From Candidatus Dormiibacterota bacterium (GTDB taxonomy: Bacteria; Acidobacteriota; Polarisedimenticolia; Gp22-AA2), in contig DASQAT010000035.1 in assembly GCA_035635555.1 (NCBI GenBank), positions 186,001 to 250,000 on the forward strand: a DNA stretch of 64,000 nt, in the 5' to 3' direction. The notes under the pieces were generated by a model, which was given only the letters and a program-made list of their open reading frames with translations, made no database searches and was not told the origin of the DNA. How positions within the stretch are numbered: position 1 is the first letter of the stretch; every line of letters begins with the position of its first letter. A program made the position numbers and the translations under genes. Positions 25,416-31,232 of the stretch are shown here, piece by piece.

Positions 25416-26165
25416 TCAGACCGTGGGGATCTTGCGCCCGTCGGGAGTCCGTTCCGGTCCCGGATCCCCGCCCCATACGACACTCGCATCGCGCGGGAAG
25501 AGCTCGACGAGACGCTCCTTGTCGGTCTCGGCCATCTCCAGGAACTCAACTCCCACTGCGTAGCCGATGCCGGTGTCGATGTTCGCCCGGACCGAGGCGA
25601 CCCGGCCGCTGACCGCGATCGGCTTTTCCTCCGTATTCCGGTAGATCCGCAGGGCGAGGTGCTCCCCCCCCTTGATGCGCGCGAGGGTGTCGAACCCGAT
25701 GCCCCCCTCGCTCACCGCGTTCGAGTAGCCGAGGAACTCGCGGATGAACCGGCCGCGCGCGACCGGCAGGACGACGGGGTAGCGCGGGTGCTGCCTGAGG
25801 CGCATTCCGAGCATGGCGGCGATCTTCTCCTGCAGGAGCGCCGCCGGGATGGAGGCGCGCACCACGTCGGTGCAACCGGCCTCCCTGAACAGGAACTCCT
25901 GCGTGTCGTCCGAGGCCAGCGCGAGGATCGGGATGCCGCGCGTCCGGTCGTCCTGACGGATCCGCCGGCAGAGATCCGGCGCGCCCATGTCGGACGCCTC
26001 GGGGGCCAGGACGATGAGGTCGGGGCGATCGGTCGCGGCCACATCGAGCAGGACCGAGCCGGCCCCGGCCGACAGCGCCTTGAGACAGGCCCTGGCGAGA
26101 AAGTGGGGTCTGCCGCTGTCGATGCGATCGCGGACCGATTCGCTCCACAGAACCTGCTTGACCAA
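25416..26165 (-). CDS. PilZ-domain protein with degenerate receiver domain
   Basis: 249 residues. The N-terminal 120 residues have a receiver-like fold, but the phospho-acceptor position is not Asp (DLIVLAPEAS), so it is a pseudo-receiver. The C-terminal PilZ domain begins with MRLRQHPRYPV (RxxxR present). Its second motif reads AVSEGG, so the first D/N of the D/NxSxxG motif is Ala. Cyclic-di-GMP binding is plausible but weakened. The start is TTG (26165), with GGGAG 4 nt upstream. It is divergent from the MetE-like pair. The layout resembles PilZ/receiver adaptors of delta-proteobacteria and Acidobacteria, possibly controlling motility or surface structures. Confidence 0.82.
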   Translation of the reverse strand: MVKQVLWSESVRDRIDSGRPHFLARACLKALSAGAGSVLLDVAATDRPDLIVLAPEASDMGAPDLCRRIRQDDRTRGIPILALASDDTQEFLFREAGCTDVVRASIPAALLQEKIAAMLGMRLRQHPRYPVVLPVARGRFIREFLGYSNAVSEGGIGFDTLARIKGGEHLALRIYRNTEEKPIAVSGRVASVRANIDTGIGYAVGVEFLEMAETDKERLVELFPRDASVVWGGDPGPERTPDGRKIPTV

Positions 26166-26342: not shown

Positions 26343-26374
26343 GGATGCCGACGCCGGCTGAGGCCGGGAGAAGG

Positions 26375-27439
26375 GTGGACGTGATCCTCGCTTCGATTCT
26401 CAACAGCTACCCGCGCATCGGGGACCGGCCCGCGGAGCAGATCCTGCGCCGGGCGCTGCATGGCGTCGACCGGGGAGAGCTCCAGCCGTCGGAGGTGGCC
26501 GGGGCCGAAGACGAGATGACCCGCATGGCCCTCCGGGATCAGTCCGAGGCCGGGATGGATCTCCTCACTGACGGGCAGATCCGCTGGCACGACCCGGTGT
26601 CGCACGTGGCGCGCGGGCTGGCCGGATTCCGGATCGAAGGGCTGCTGCGCTACTTCGATACGAACACCTACTATCGCCAGCCGGCGGCGGCCGGACCGAT
26701 CGGCCGCGAGCGGCCGTTCCTGGCCGAAGCCTACCGCTTCGCGTCGGCCGCCGCGGCGCCCCGCCCGGTGAAGGGGATCGTCACCGGCCCGATCACTCTC
26801 GCCCGGCTGTCGCGCGATACGCGCGGGCGCGGCATGCGCGACCTGGCGCTCGAGATCGCCTCCGCCCTGAACCGCGAGCTCCTGGACCTCGAGGCGGCCG
26901 GCGCCGCGATCATCCAGGTCGACGAGCCGGTCCTGGCGCGGTTCCCGGAAGCCGCGGATCTTCTTCGCCTCGCGATGCGCCGGCTGGTGGCCGGCCTGAC
27001 TTCCGCGCGGATCATCCTCGCGACCTCATTCGGCGACGCGACTCCCTTCTCCGGCGACCTCGCCGCTCTCCCCGTGGCGATGCTCGGCTTCGACGTGGTG
27101 GCCGCCCTGGACCGGATGAAAACCACGGCGACCGCCAGGGAGGAGATCGCCGCCGCGGCCGCCGGCCTCGGGACCCGGCTGGCCGCCGGCCTCGTTCCGG
27201 GGACCGGTCTCCTGCTCGGCGTCATCGACGGCCGGAACACGCGGCTGGAGGATCCCGGAGAGACCTACGAGCAGCGCGTGCGGCCCATTCTCGAGGCGCT
27301 GCGGGCCTCCCAACGGGCCACGTCCGAGGTGCACCTCGCCCCGAACCACGGCCTGGAGTTCCTGCCCCGCGATACGGCGCGGGCGAAGCTGTCACGACTG
27401 GCGGCCTTGCGCGACCGGGCCAGACAGGAGTTCGCATGA
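26375..27439 (+). CDS. MetE-like barrel protein lacking zinc ligands (first of a pair)
   Basis: About 354 residues of the methionine-synthase II (MetE) barrel family. LNSYPRIGDRP near the start and LLTDGQIRWHDPVSH are typical of the N-terminal half of split or archaeal-type MetE. Compared with the downstream paralogue, all four zinc positions are changed: His to Ala and Cys to Ser in LATSFGD, Glu to Gly in MLGFDV, and Cys to His in APNHGLE. It therefore cannot bind catalytic zinc in the usual way. GTG 26375 is chosen for its GGGAGAAGG site; ATG 26345 is the in-frame alternative. The stop overlaps the next ATG (ATGA). It probably pairs with the downstream protein as the non-catalytic half. Confidence 0.85.
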   Translation: MDVILASILNSYPRIGDRPAEQILRRALHGVDRGELQPSEVAGAEDEMTRMALRDQSEAGMDLLTDGQIRWHDPVSHVARGLAGFRIEGLLRYFDTNTYYRQPAAAGPIGRERPFLAEAYRFASAAAAPRPVKGIVTGPITLARLSRDTRGRGMRDLALEIASALNRELLDLEAAGAAIIQVDEPVLARFPEAADLLRLAMRRLVAGLTSARIILATSFGDATPFSGDLAALPVAMLGFDVVAALDRMKTTATAREEIAAAAAGLGTRLAAGLVPGTGLLLGVIDGRNTRLEDPGETYEQRVRPILEALRASQRATSEVHLAPNHGLEFLPRDTARAKLSRLAALRDRARQEFA

Positions 27440-28455
27440 GCGACATCGCGCCTCTCGCGGACGGCGACGCCCGGGAGGCTCCGGCGCTGCCTGCCGGACT
27501 TCTCCTGCCGCTCAGCACGATCGGGTCGTTCCCCAAGCCGGAGCGGCTGAAGCGGGCGCGCGCCGAGGTCTCCCGCGGCGGCGACGCGGAGTCGCTGCAC
27601 GCCATCGAGCGCGAGGAGACCAGCGCATGCCTCCGGCTTCAGGAAGACCTGGGCCTCGACCTGCTGGTGGACGGCGAGATGTACCGCGGCGACATGACGA
27701 CCTATTTCGCCGAGAACCTGGAAGGGTTCCGCATCTCGGGGCTGGTGCGCTCGTACGGCAACCGCTACTACCGGAAGCCGGTCGTGGTCGGCGAGGTGCG
27801 CTGGAGTCGTCCGGTCACGGTCGAGTGGTTCCGCTACGCCAGCGGGCAGACGCGCCATCCGGTGAAGGCGATCCTGACCGGCCCCTATACCTTGATGGAC
27901 TGGGCGTTCGACGAGCACTACGCCTCGCGCGAATCGCTGGCCCTGGCGCTGGCCGACGTGGTCCGCCAGGAGTGCGAGGCGCTGGTCGCGGCCGGCGCGC
28001 GCTACGTCCAGATCGACGAGCCGGCCGTTTCGGTGCGCCCGGACGAGATCGATCTCGCGATTCGCGCCATGCACCGGGTCACCGACGGTCTGCGCGCCAG
28101 GACGATCACGCACATCTGCTATGGAGACTTCGCGGCCATCTATCCCCGCCTGCTGGACCTGCCCGTGGAGCAGTTCACCCTGGAGCTGTCGAACTCGGCC
28201 CTCGGCCTGCTCGATCTGTTCCGCACCTCGCCGTTCACGAAGGAGCTGGGGGCGGGCGTGCTGGACGTCCACCACCACGCCATCGAGACGGTCGAAGTGG
28301 TGAAGGAGCGCATCCGGGCGGCGCTCGGCGTCGTGCCGGCGTCCCGTCTCTGGATCAACCCGGACTGCGGTCTCAAGACCCGCTCCCCCGAAGAGGCGGA
28401 AGCCAAGATCAGGAACATGGTCGCGGCCACCCTCGAGGTGCGGCGCAGCCTCTGA
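27436..28455 (+). CDS. cobalamin-independent methionine synthase-like protein (zinc-binding MetE C-domain type)
   Basis: 339 residues, a single MetE barrel. The zinc ligands are H226 and C228 (THICYGDF), the Glu of FTLELSN (about E250) and C311 (INPDCGLKTRSPEEA). IGSFPKP near residue 30 and DGEMYRGDM are family signatures. It should transfer a methyl group to a thiol, probably homocysteine. The methyl donor may be methylfolate or a corrinoid protein, as for stand-alone core-MetE enzymes. It is translationally coupled (ATGA) to the zinc-less paralogue upstream; the two resemble the halves of full-length MetE split into two genes. Confidence 0.9.
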   Translation: MSDIAPLADGDAREAPALPAGLLLPLSTIGSFPKPERLKRARAEVSRGGDAESLHAIEREETSACLRLQEDLGLDLLVDGEMYRGDMTTYFAENLEGFRISGLVRSYGNRYYRKPVVVGEVRWSRPVTVEWFRYASGQTRHPVKAILTGPYTLMDWAFDEHYASRESLALALADVVRQECEALVAAGARYVQIDEPAVSVRPDEIDLAIRAMHRVTDGLRARTITHICYGDFAAIYPRLLDLPVEQFTLELSNSALGLLDLFRTSPFTKELGAGVLDVHHHAIETVEVVKERIRAALGVVPASRLWINPDCGLKTRSPEEAEAKIRNMVAATLEVRRSL

Positions 28456-28478: not shown

Positions 28479-31232
28479 CTACGGAACTCCGCCGCACGCG
28501 CCGTTCGGCATCGGGCGTCTCTGGCCGTTCTTGCCCCTGCCGGCGGAGCCCTCGCCGCAGCGGTCGCTCGCGGTCACCAGATAGTAATGGCTCGTCGTGC
28601 CGGTGGGGGTGATGTCGAGAAACCGGTTGCCGGCGCCGTCCGAGGCGCCGGTCACGTGGCACAGAAGCGGCACGTGCGAGTACCAGCTTCCGAGCGTCCC
28701 CTCGTAGATGTTGTAGGCCGGGACCGTCGCACCCTGGTCTTCCCAGGTCAGGCGCAGGCCGGAGCCGCTCCCCGTCACCCCGACGGGGTGGAACGAGCCG
28801 GGCAGCGATACGGTGCCCGGCGGTCCCTGGCCGAAGGCGATGCCGGTCAGGCCGGAGATGAGGGGCGAGAATTGCACCCGCCGGTCCGCCACGCCGTCCC
28901 CATCGTCGTCCGGCAGCGCCAGGACCCGGCTGGCGCTGTCGACGACGTACAGCACGTCCTGGTCGTCGAACGCCAGTCCCGAGAAGGCGTCGAGAGAGAG
29001 CCCGGGCGCATAGGTCGTCACGCTGTCGGCGACACCATCTCCGTCCCGATCGACGATCCGATCGATCTCGCCCAGGGAGATGTTTCCGGCGAACACCTCC
29101 CCGGCGCGGTGCGCGATGATGTTCACATAGGGGGACGCGTCGGCCAGGAAGACGGTGGATGTGTCGGCCACCCCGTCGTTGTCCGAATCGCGGTACGCGA
29201 TCAGGCCGCCGATCCCGTTGAAGGACACATCGAAGACGTAGAGGGTCCCCGCCTCGTCGGCGGACACGCCCAGGACCGACTGCGGAGCCGGCGCGAACGG
29301 GGTGGTGCGTTCCGGCAGCGCATCTCCGCCGGAATCGAGCATCTCGAAAAGCGGCGCGGCGCTGAACAGGTCTCCGGTGAACAGGTATTCCGCTCCGGCG
29401 CGCCGGGCGCCGCCGAGGGCCCGCGTGTCGCCGACGGACGTCGGAACGACCACCGTCCGGTCGAACGTGAAATCACCGGTGTCGTCGTAGAGGGCGAACA
29501 CGGTCTGCGACTGGTTCCCCAGGCAGACGCCACCGTCGCGCCGCGTGACAATCGCGCCCAGCCCGCTCCCGGCGCCGGAGGCGAACACCGATTGCCCGTC
29601 GAAGCGGAGGTCGTGGTCGCTGTCGGAGATGGCGTAGATCGCCCCGTCCCCGTTCGAACTGGCGTAGAGAACCCTCCCGCCGCACGTGCCGGTCCGCACT
29701 TCCGGAATCGAGCAGCGCACTGTCATCGAATAGTCGCCGACGGTGCGCGCGTCGCTGCCGGTGAACGTGCTGTCGTTGAAGGACGCCGCCGCGATGTAAT
29801 AGGTTCCCGGGGAAAGGAGATCCACGTTGAGGATGGGGTCGAAGGACACCGTGTTGTCGGCGAAACCCAGGCGGTTGCCCGCCGCGTCGAACACGCCGAC
29901 GATCGGGTCGAGGGGAGAGCCGCTCCTAGCCGCGTTGATGTCGACCTGCAGCGCGGTGGCGTTCGTGATCGACAGCGCGTAGTAATCAATGTCCCCCTGC
30001 GGCACGATCGAAGCGTGCACCGTCTGCTCGCACGTGACCGGCGTGGCCGAGGCGCGCGTGTTGTTCGGCTCGTTCGGATCGGGCGCGGCGACGTTGGTCA
30101 GGAAATCGATCCCCGTGACGGTCTGGCCGGCCGCGACGTCGATCGCGACCCGGTCGGTCGCCAGGTCGAAGCCCGACTCGGTGGCCCCGTCGTAGAACTC
30201 CGGCGGGAACGACGTGTTGAAACCGGTGAAGTGGGTGTTCGACTGGGTGAACGGGTTGCTCGTTCCCACCAGCGGCTCCAGACGCAGAGAGTAGCTCCCC
30301 GGCGGCAGGCCGACGATGGTGTATCCCCCTCCCGGTCCTCCCCCCTGCACGTCCGAGATCACTCCGACCACCGGTACGTCCGGAGCGGAGGCGGCCACCG
30401 CCACGACGTGCGCCCCCTTGATGGGACTGAACGTCCCGCCGTCCAGCACCCGTCCGGAGATCGTCCCCATGGTCGAGGCGAGCGTGCTGTTCGGATAGAT
30501 GAACGACACGCCGGACATGTCGTCCTGCGACAGGCTGCGCCCCTGGATGGTCCGGGACCCGTACGGGTACAGGGTGGCCTGGGAGGAGAAGTCTCCCGAC
30601 GTGAAGCCGGACACCTCCAGGCCGGTCGACGCGAACCGGCCCGCCACGGCGCTGTGGTCGAAGCCAAGGCAGTGACCCATCTCGTGGGTCGAGAGCTCGC
30701 CCAGATCGTACGTGGTCGGACCGAGGTTCTGGTTCGGGTTCGCCGGGGTCGTGGTGCTGAAGGTGTAGAGCCGCTCGTTGAAAACGATATCGCAGTCGGT
30801 GATCCGGCCGTCCCCCGCCACATAGAAGAAGGAGACCGCGATGGCGCTGCTGAGATGGTTGGACGTGTCGGTCTCCGCGAAGTAGACGCGGTTGATGCCG
30901 TCGTTCCCGAGACCGGCCCCGGCGTCGATGGGGCTCGCCAGGTTGAAGCGGGCCCCCTCGGTGATCGTGGCGTTGGAGGTCGGAACGTCCGTCCAGCGCT
31001 GCATGCTCGCCTGGAGCGTCGTGATGTCCGACCCGTCGGTGATCCGGAACGAGGCGTCCTGCTCGAGGCGCAGCACGAGGTTGCCACCCAGCTGGAACAC
31101 CCCGATGTCGGAGAAACCCAGGTCCACAAGGTTCGTCTGCACGTAGGCAAGGGCGGCCGCCCCGCCCGCCACGGACAGGACGGCGACCAGGAGGGCCGCG
31201 CGGATCGGCGGGAACGACCGCGTGATCCTCAC
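28479..31232 (-). CDS. secreted matrixin-type metalloprotease, multidomain
   Basis: 917 residues. A signal peptide covers about 1-30. The matrixin catalytic domain has HEMGHCLGFDH (H183, E184, H187, H193), a full HExxHxxGxxH zinc motif. A carboxypeptidase-regulatory-like Ig domain follows (ISGRVLDGG...YTIVGLPPGSYSLRL), then a pre-peptidase C-terminal type domain (DPNEPNN..., GDIDYYALSI). The last 400 residues look like a beta-propeller with acidic Ca-binding motifs (DSDNDGVADT, DRDGDGVADS, DDDGDGVADR). There is no C-terminal sorting signal I recognise. The start is GTG 31232, overlapping the upstream gene's stop (GTGA). Extracellular proteolysis is likely; substrate unknown. Confidence 0.88.
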   Translation of the reverse strand: MRITRSFPPIRAALLVAVLSVAGGAAALAYVQTNLVDLGFSDIGVFQLGGNLVLRLEQDASFRITDGSDITTLQASMQRWTDVPTSNATITEGARFNLASPIDAGAGLGNDGINRVYFAETDTSNHLSSAIAVSFFYVAGDGRITDCDIVFNERLYTFSTTTPANPNQNLGPTTYDLGELSTHEMGHCLGFDHSAVAGRFASTGLEVSGFTSGDFSSQATLYPYGSRTIQGRSLSQDDMSGVSFIYPNSTLASTMGTISGRVLDGGTFSPIKGAHVVAVAASAPDVPVVGVISDVQGGGPGGGYTIVGLPPGSYSLRLEPLVGTSNPFTQSNTHFTGFNTSFPPEFYDGATESGFDLATDRVAIDVAAGQTVTGIDFLTNVAAPDPNEPNNTRASATPVTCEQTVHASIVPQGDIDYYALSITNATALQVDINAARSGSPLDPIVGVFDAAGNRLGFADNTVSFDPILNVDLLSPGTYYIAAASFNDSTFTGSDARTVGDYSMTVRCSIPEVRTGTCGGRVLYASSNGDGAIYAISDSDHDLRFDGQSVFASGAGSGLGAIVTRRDGGVCLGNQSQTVFALYDDTGDFTFDRTVVVPTSVGDTRALGGARRAGAEYLFTGDLFSAAPLFEMLDSGGDALPERTTPFAPAPQSVLGVSADEAGTLYVFDVSFNGIGGLIAYRDSDNDGVADTSTVFLADASPYVNIIAHRAGEVFAGNISLGEIDRIVDRDGDGVADSVTTYAPGLSLDAFSGLAFDDQDVLYVVDSASRVLALPDDDGDGVADRRVQFSPLISGLTGIAFGQGPPGTVSLPGSFHPVGVTGSGSGLRLTWEDQGATVPAYNIYEGTLGSWYSHVPLLCHVTGASDGAGNRFLDITPTGTTSHYYLVTASDRCGEGSAGRGKNGQRRPMPNGACGGVP

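Follow-up and report, generated by a model that had tools for sequence, protein, structure and literature searches.

A candidate split MetE methionine synthase encoded by an overlapping gene pair in an Acidobacteriota lineage

Split MetE was described by Price, Deutschbauer and Arkin in 2021 (PMC7857596). In the sections of that paper cited here, it was presented as primarily archaeal with one bacterium named, Sulfobacillus sp. hq2, a complex of PF1268 and PF1269 from Pyrococcus furiosus was reported, and split MetE was usually the sole known methionine synthase of its genome; the arrangement and the prediction of methyl-tetrahydrofolate or another methyl pterin as donor are thus already published. 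In the window, the whole 64,000-nucleotide stretch of DNA analysed here, we found two adjacent genes arranged like PF1268/PF1269, each encoding fewer than 400 amino acids, one for an N-half and the other for a zinc-binding C-half. The predicted methyl-pterin donor and a genome in which no fused MetE was found are further likenesses to the published sections on split MetE, whereas the host belongs to an uncultured Acidobacteriota lineage and carries parts of a B12-dependent route besides.

Two other kinds of enzyme are close to this pair. Fused (tandem-repeat) MetE has the same two barrels, the zinc site and most of the folate contacts, but the pair consists of separate polypeptides with no inter-barrel linker, and its N subunit is far less diverged from the C barrel. 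MesD and other core MetE proteins (MesA-C) are single zinc barrels homologous to the second protein, P0002; unlike P0002, both MesD proteins examined lack equivalents of R493, R496 and W539 (Thermotoga maritima MetE numbering) and have an adjoining mesX gene. We conclude that the first protein, P0001, and P0002 very probably make up a two-subunit, cobalamin-independent methionine synthase, a split MetE encoded by a bicistronic gene pair, with its complex, activity and donor predicted. What is added to known split MetE is a broader range among bacteria and a test of the donor by residues; in the titles and abstract openings searched (subscription papers and preprints lay outside reach), we found no account of the bacterial spread of split MetE beyond Price et al.

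Gene pair and predicted folds

The genes and their surroundings are as follows, in positions of the window.

25416-26165, minus strand: PilZ-domain gene, the upstream neighbour
26366-26375, plus strand: probable ribosome-binding site of the P0001 gene, GGGAGAAGGG, read from the sequence
26381-27439, plus strand: predicted split-MetE N subunit P0001, a zinc-less (beta/alpha)8 barrel (longest frame from ATG 26345)
27436-27439, plus strand: ATGA stop/start overlap of the P0001 and P0002 genes
27436-28455, plus strand: predicted split-MetE catalytic C subunit P0002, a zinc barrel, from families, residues and predicted fold
28479-31232, minus strand: large gene for a 917-aa predicted protein with weak domain matches only, the downstream neighbour

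P0001 (364 aa, counted from ATG 26345) and P0002 (339 aa) both lie within the 400 aa expected of split MetE components, and their genes are adjacent, the two open frames overlapping by ATGA at 27436-27439 as the earlier note had described. The P0001 start is likely GTG 26381 rather than ATG 26345 or GTG 26375, because the M of several relatives falls at that residue and the purine-rich GGGAGAAGGG lies shortly upstream at a spacing usual for a ribosome site. GTG 26375, the start adopted earlier, is possible but fits less well on both counts. A pseudogene or a chance reading frame was ruled out by uninterrupted orthologues in G001, G002, G003 and G004, genomes of the same genus as the host. Estimated dN and dS against G003 were 0.18 and 0.69 for the N subunit and 0.07 and 0.55 for the C subunit; against G002 they were 0.20 and 0.76, and 0.13 and 0.48, respectively. 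The G003 N subunit (L016/L082) mismatches its orthologues over the first ~36 residues and matches over the rest, a possible frameshift or assembly error. The P0001 and P0002 genes look like a two-gene operon of their own; no methionine gene was found among the five neighbours scanned, and an amidohydrolase and an enoyl-CoA hydratase are encoded farther upstream. The 917-aa protein gave a weak DUF7133 match, with CarboxypepD_reg and matrixin below cut-off.

Both proteins match MetE-type families. In the protein search, P0001 matched Meth_synt_1 (PF08267) with 79.6 bits and Meth_synt_2 (PF01717) with 75.2 bits; in genome searches the scores were 66.1 and 74.7 bits, so that the two families nearly tie and their order changes with the search. 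Near ties between these two families are also reported for the second component of split MetE, defined as scoring higher with Meth_synt_1, in the cited part of Price et al. (PMC7857596). P0002 matched Meth_synt_2 with 246.9 bits. The best NCBIfam model for both proteins was PRK04326, a single-barrel methionine synthase that served as proxy for the phmmer score of 200 bits or more against P. furiosus PF1269 expected of a split MetE catalytic component (P0001 163.9 bits, P0002 386.6 bits, cut-off 406); among six other split C subunits, two Hadarchaeal ones passed this cut-off (420.6 and 422.8) and four scored 368-400, one of these being archaeal (370.7 bits). Scores against the fused MetE family TIGR01371 were 76.7 bits for P0001 and 280.5 bits for P0002, below its cut-off of 929.95 bits.

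AlphaFold2 monomer models had a mean pLDDT of 93.5 (P0001) and 92.5 (P0002). Compared with fused MetE structures, the P0002 model matched the C barrel in every row listed, and its best structural match was the MetE C barrel of 3l7r (Z 40.6, rmsd 1.8, 317 residues). The P0001 model matched MesD (Z 36.7), the N barrel of Streptococcus mutans MetE 2nq5 (Z 36.0, rmsd 2.4, 318 residues) and the C barrel of other MetE entries (Z 34.3 in 4qqu); mean sequence identity of P0001 was 28.7% to split C subunits and 24.6% to fused N-halves. In sequence and in modelled fold, the P0001 barrel is thus intermediate between the two MetE halves. This structural tie between N and C barrels is by itself insufficient for an N-half assignment, which rests on tree and motifs. 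Families, residues, fold and tree together bear out the proposal that the N- and C-halves of MetE stand here as separate genes.

Active-site residues and the methyl donor

Residues were compared in loci from one scan of named genomes, which gave 179 confirmed N-subunit relatives; the best 80, ranked by likeness to P0001, were kept, and 72 of these have a scored C partner. Site numbers follow E. coli MetE as given by Price et al. (PMC7857596) and T. maritima MetE as given in section 9 of Pejchal and Ludwig (PMC539065). The sites lie at the following positions.

26447-26449, plus strand: P0001 R35, taken as T. maritima K18 (MAFFT alignment)
26648-26665, plus strand: P0001 RYFDTN motif, R102 to N107, with R102 taken as T. 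maritima K104
27763-27774, plus strand: P0002 R110 and R113, taken as T. maritima R493 and R496
27901-27903, plus strand: P0002 W156, taken as T. maritima W539
28111-28119, plus strand: codons of P0002 zinc ligands H226 and C228 (E. coli MetE H641 and C643)
28183-28185, plus strand: codon of P0002 zinc ligand E250 (E665)
28366-28368, plus strand: codon of P0002 zinc ligand C311 (C726)

P0002 has His, Cys, Glu and Cys at the four zinc positions (H226, C228, E250 and C311), in agreement with the earlier reading, and S31, E81 and D194 as homocysteine residues; Meth_synt_2, zinc residues and homocysteine residues, the marks of the split MetE catalytic component, are all present in it. P0001 had been read as Ala, Ser, Gly and His. 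Ala226, Ser228 and His335 stand, but the third residue is Asp250, not Gly. Asp occupies that column in 79 of the 80 split N subunits (best 80 of 179 loci) and in all 16 fused MetE N-halves. Cys was found at the C643 position in 0/87 N subunits, a set that, like its 79 C rows, includes one genome twice (L015, L083), and the 80/72 set was favoured for this reason. Among the 72 split C subunits (best 80 of 179 loci), the zinc set reads H and C, then E in 64 or A in eight, and C in 71 (one is cut before the last Cys), and the homocysteine residues are S in 72/72, E in 71/72 (one X) and D in 72/72. The eight HCAC sequences, in which the zinc Glu is replaced by Ala (L084, L086, L123, L126, L131, L137, L143 and L146), come from Rokubacteria, Methylomirabilota, Bacillota and Chloroflexi records.

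In T. maritima MetE, as set out in the cited part of Pejchal and Ludwig (PMC539065), the C barrel makes most of the folate contacts and the N barrel assists: R493 and R496 contact the glutamate tail, W539 stacks on the pterin, E583 holds the pterin 2-NH2/N3, K18 contacts the folate tail and K104 hydrogen-bonds to pterin O4. In the best 80 of 179 loci, the R493 equivalent is R in 71 of the 72 split C subunits (one X), the W539 equivalent is W in 72/72, and R496 is represented by R, K or H in 69/72; all 16 fused C-halves have R and W at the first two positions. At the R493, W539 and R496 positions, the two MesD proteins examined carry Y, T and S, respectively. E583 has no clear equivalent in split C subunits, where the loop is shorter and E204 lies nearby, a position occupied by E in 75 of the 79 C subunits and by D in the other 4.

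On the N side, the K18 equivalent is R in 79/80 split N subunits (best 80 of 179 loci) and K in 16/16 fused N-halves, and the K104 equivalent, where P0001 R102 faces a conserved Lys of fused N-halves in the alignment, is R in 80/80 and K in 16/16; both equivalences depend on our own alignment, and the K104 count is inflated, one of the two search patterns having contained the R102 motif. Seven N rows from other searches (one from the genome of L083) also have R at the K104 equivalent. One split N subunit departs from R at the K18 position; this may be L082, in which the opening residues are shifted out of register.

The earlier note had raised an alternative methyl donor. This was not supported: the MetE folate-contact residues are kept, the host genome has two MTHFR matches, and MesX (DUF1852, PF08908), the partner expected in a genome with MesD, gave no match in host genome G000, the mesX-bearing control plasmid giving 531 bits. 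Judged by these residues, methylfolate is most likely the methyl donor, because the folate contacts are kept in both subunits and those of the C barrel are absent from both MesD proteins. Single-barrel MetE proteins that use methylcobalamin are known (cited part of PMC7005905), and the host carries a corrinoid protein, a pterin methyltransferase, RACo, an MttB-family protein and homocysteine methyltransferases, so P0002 might be conceived of as a core MetE-type enzyme on the B12 route. We consider this very unlikely, since P0002 keeps the equivalents of R493, R496 and W539 that both MesD proteins lack (the core MetE proteins compared being MesD), an N subunit with MetE-N residues accompanies the zinc barrel in 72/80 loci (best 80 of 179, the rest mostly contig ends), and 0/12 B12-binding matches of the host lie on C35, the contig of the pair.

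For a methylfolate-dependent split MetE, we propose that the C subunit would bind zinc through H226, C228, E250 and C311 and homocysteine through S31, E81 and D194, with R110, R113 and W156 providing the bulk of the methyl-pterin site. The N subunit, a barrel presumably duplicated and then deprived of zinc, would dock face to face with the C subunit, and its basic residues R35 and R102 would cover the folate by closing the cleft. Activated by zinc, the homocysteine thiolate could then accept the methyl group directly from 5-methyl-tetrahydrofolate.

Distribution and other methionine synthase routes

By record title, 56 of the best 80 of 179 loci are bacterial and 24 archaeal, a share that, like the R102 count, is biased by selection on P0001 likeness and the R102 pattern. 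The bacterial loci fall in 12 named phyla, for example Chloroflexota (23), Acidobacteriota (9) and Methylomirabilota (8), and the archaeal ones in records titled Euryarchaeota, Hadesarchaea and others; the loci are mostly metagenome-assembled, and isolated odd taxon labels may be binning errors. Some records of the host genus bear the title 'Acidobacteria bacterium isolate gp22'. A zinc partner lies downstream on the same strand in 72/80 loci (best 80 of 179). In the other eight, four C partners are cut at a contig end, one (L128) gave a short C match, and in three the contig stops at the N gene or no more than about 340 bases beyond it. Of the 74 pairs scored, 50 allow a 4-base overlap. Some N barrels score equally against P0002 and P0001, forming a graded series. 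A riboswitch search at Rfam gathering scores, covering the window and 16 of the 80 named loci (best 80 of 179), found no element linking the pair to B12 or methionine. A phylum survey of 396 genomes gave PF08267 matches in 49, of which 19 exceeded 360 bits, the ordinary range of fused MetE. In G026, an N-type barrel (L024, contig C50:16353-17291) is the sole PF01717 match and no C partner was seen; this genome has MetH with a full activation domain.

Profile searches found no fused MetE in the host genome, and PF02965 found no MetH with a full activation domain there (matches above 100 bits, sorted by eye). The host genus gave only weak PF02965 matches (28-42 bits); this model is blind to MetH without the activation domain, as a T. 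maritima control, such a MetH according to its PDB title, gave no match. Among 60 relatives searched, eight have the pair, and full-activation-domain MetH was detected in 0/8 of these against 36/52 of the others (Fisher p 0.0003, from non-independent genomes, 6/8 pair genomes being from one family). It was also absent from three further pair genomes, G088, G327 and G334 (0/3; 0/11 overall), five of the 11 being 75-88% complete (G002, G004, G005, G017 and G088). G005 was counted as a pair genome although its contig breaks off within the N gene, leaving no C subunit sequence, and the N gene of G050 is broken across two contig ends.

The pair might instead methylate a thiol other than homocysteine or serve another role, as three homocysteine methyltransferase matches occur elsewhere in the host genome and those relatives of the pair in the same class that lack the zinc set must have a different function. 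With every tested zinc and homocysteine residue kept in P0002, and the pair found in genomes without detected full-activation-domain MetH, we regard this as extremely unlikely and retain methionine synthesis as the predicted role.

The host genome has 12 B12-binding matches, 0 of them on contig C35, which carries the pair. A homocysteine S-methyltransferase adjoins an MttB-family protein and a MetH-activation-like protein on contig C3, a homocysteine methyltransferase/MTHFR fusion is encoded on C9, a corrinoid protein with MTHFR, pterin methyltransferase and RACo on C10, and a third homocysteine methyltransferase on C39 (loci L074, L075, L076 and L234 of G000). These scattered corrinoid methyltransferase parts resemble MtgBCDE, a set that, in the cited part of PMC12478193, also serves marine bacteria as a B12-dependent methionine synthase. 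The host may thus possess another, B12-dependent methionine synthase, and because of these MtgBCDE-like parts, split MetE may be its B12-independent alternative rather than its sole methionine synthase.

More divergent MetE-like barrels were also seen. Zinc-less adjacent pairs occur in the same class at L020/L053 (G034), L021/L054 (G024), L023/L055 (G015) and L022 (G021); their second barrels have RCDA, YGAG, QAEA and GGDA as zinc set, and homocysteine residues are partly or wholly lost. Those of G034 and G015 keep R493, R496 and W539. All four genomes have full-activation-domain MetH, and similar predicted proteins of ~670 aa adjoin the pair in G034 and G024 (judged by eye; two of five loci gene-called). 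A third, solitary MetE-like barrel is encoded in the host at L002:1423-2343 (G000 contig C46:134394-135239), with similar ones in other genomes of the genus and family. The zinc positions of four compared are HEDS (two), HDDS and HADG, possibly a different metal site.

Phylogeny and origin of the two barrels

The main tree comprised 70 rows, with 25 split pairs (of 87 loci with an N subunit), nine of 16 fused MetE and two MesD, the zinc-less and third-paralogue groups being left out. A larger FastTree (213 rows) gave a long-branch warning and placed the C set on a branch with 27% support, and conclusions therefore rest on the 70-row tree. There, a branch with 100/99 support splits N subunits and fused N-halves from C subunits, fused C-halves and MesD; P0001 groups with MetE N-halves and P0002 with C-halves. 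Fused N and fused C each form one clade (100/100) without split sequences, among the nine fused MetE sampled. When rooted between N and C, fused N is nested within split N (98/83), and fused C is placed among the split C subunits (84/96). Constraining split N to be monophyletic and sister to fused N was weakly rejected (AU p 0.031, weaker than face value, the group having been picked after tree inspection), and constraining split C to a single clade was not rejected (AU p 0.34).

Recent break-up of an extant fused MetE is unlikely as the source of the split pair, judging from the tree, because extant fused MetE forms its own clade on both sides. Fission of ordinary fused MetE more generally appears quite improbable: split C as one clade apart from fused C is compatible with the data (AU p 0.34), the C side being silent on the order of events, but each fused half forms a single clade (100/100) that contains no split sequences (nine fused MetE sampled), and split N subunits are nearer to C barrels than fused N-halves are (mean identity to P0002 32.1% vs 20.3%). 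The earlier suggestion that the pair retains an ancestral form of methionine synthase was supported in part: neither half lies inside fused MetE and the N side speaks mildly for fused from split (AU p 0.031), but the C side is undecided (0.34), and on these sequences an ancestral status is possible. Tentatively, and with somewhat less than even confidence, we suggest that split MetE, widespread in archaea and in uncultured bacteria, is the older form and that fused MetE is one lineage in which the genes were joined and the N barrel was then rebuilt.

The pair extends a form of methionine synthase so far described mostly from archaea to bacterial groups, and cautions against annotating P0002 as a 'core' B12-using enzyme. 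These barrels could be used to test how a catalytic domain is converted into a helper domain after duplication; if the split form is indeed the older, the graded series of N barrels would record the passage from a catalytic barrel to a zinc-less helper.
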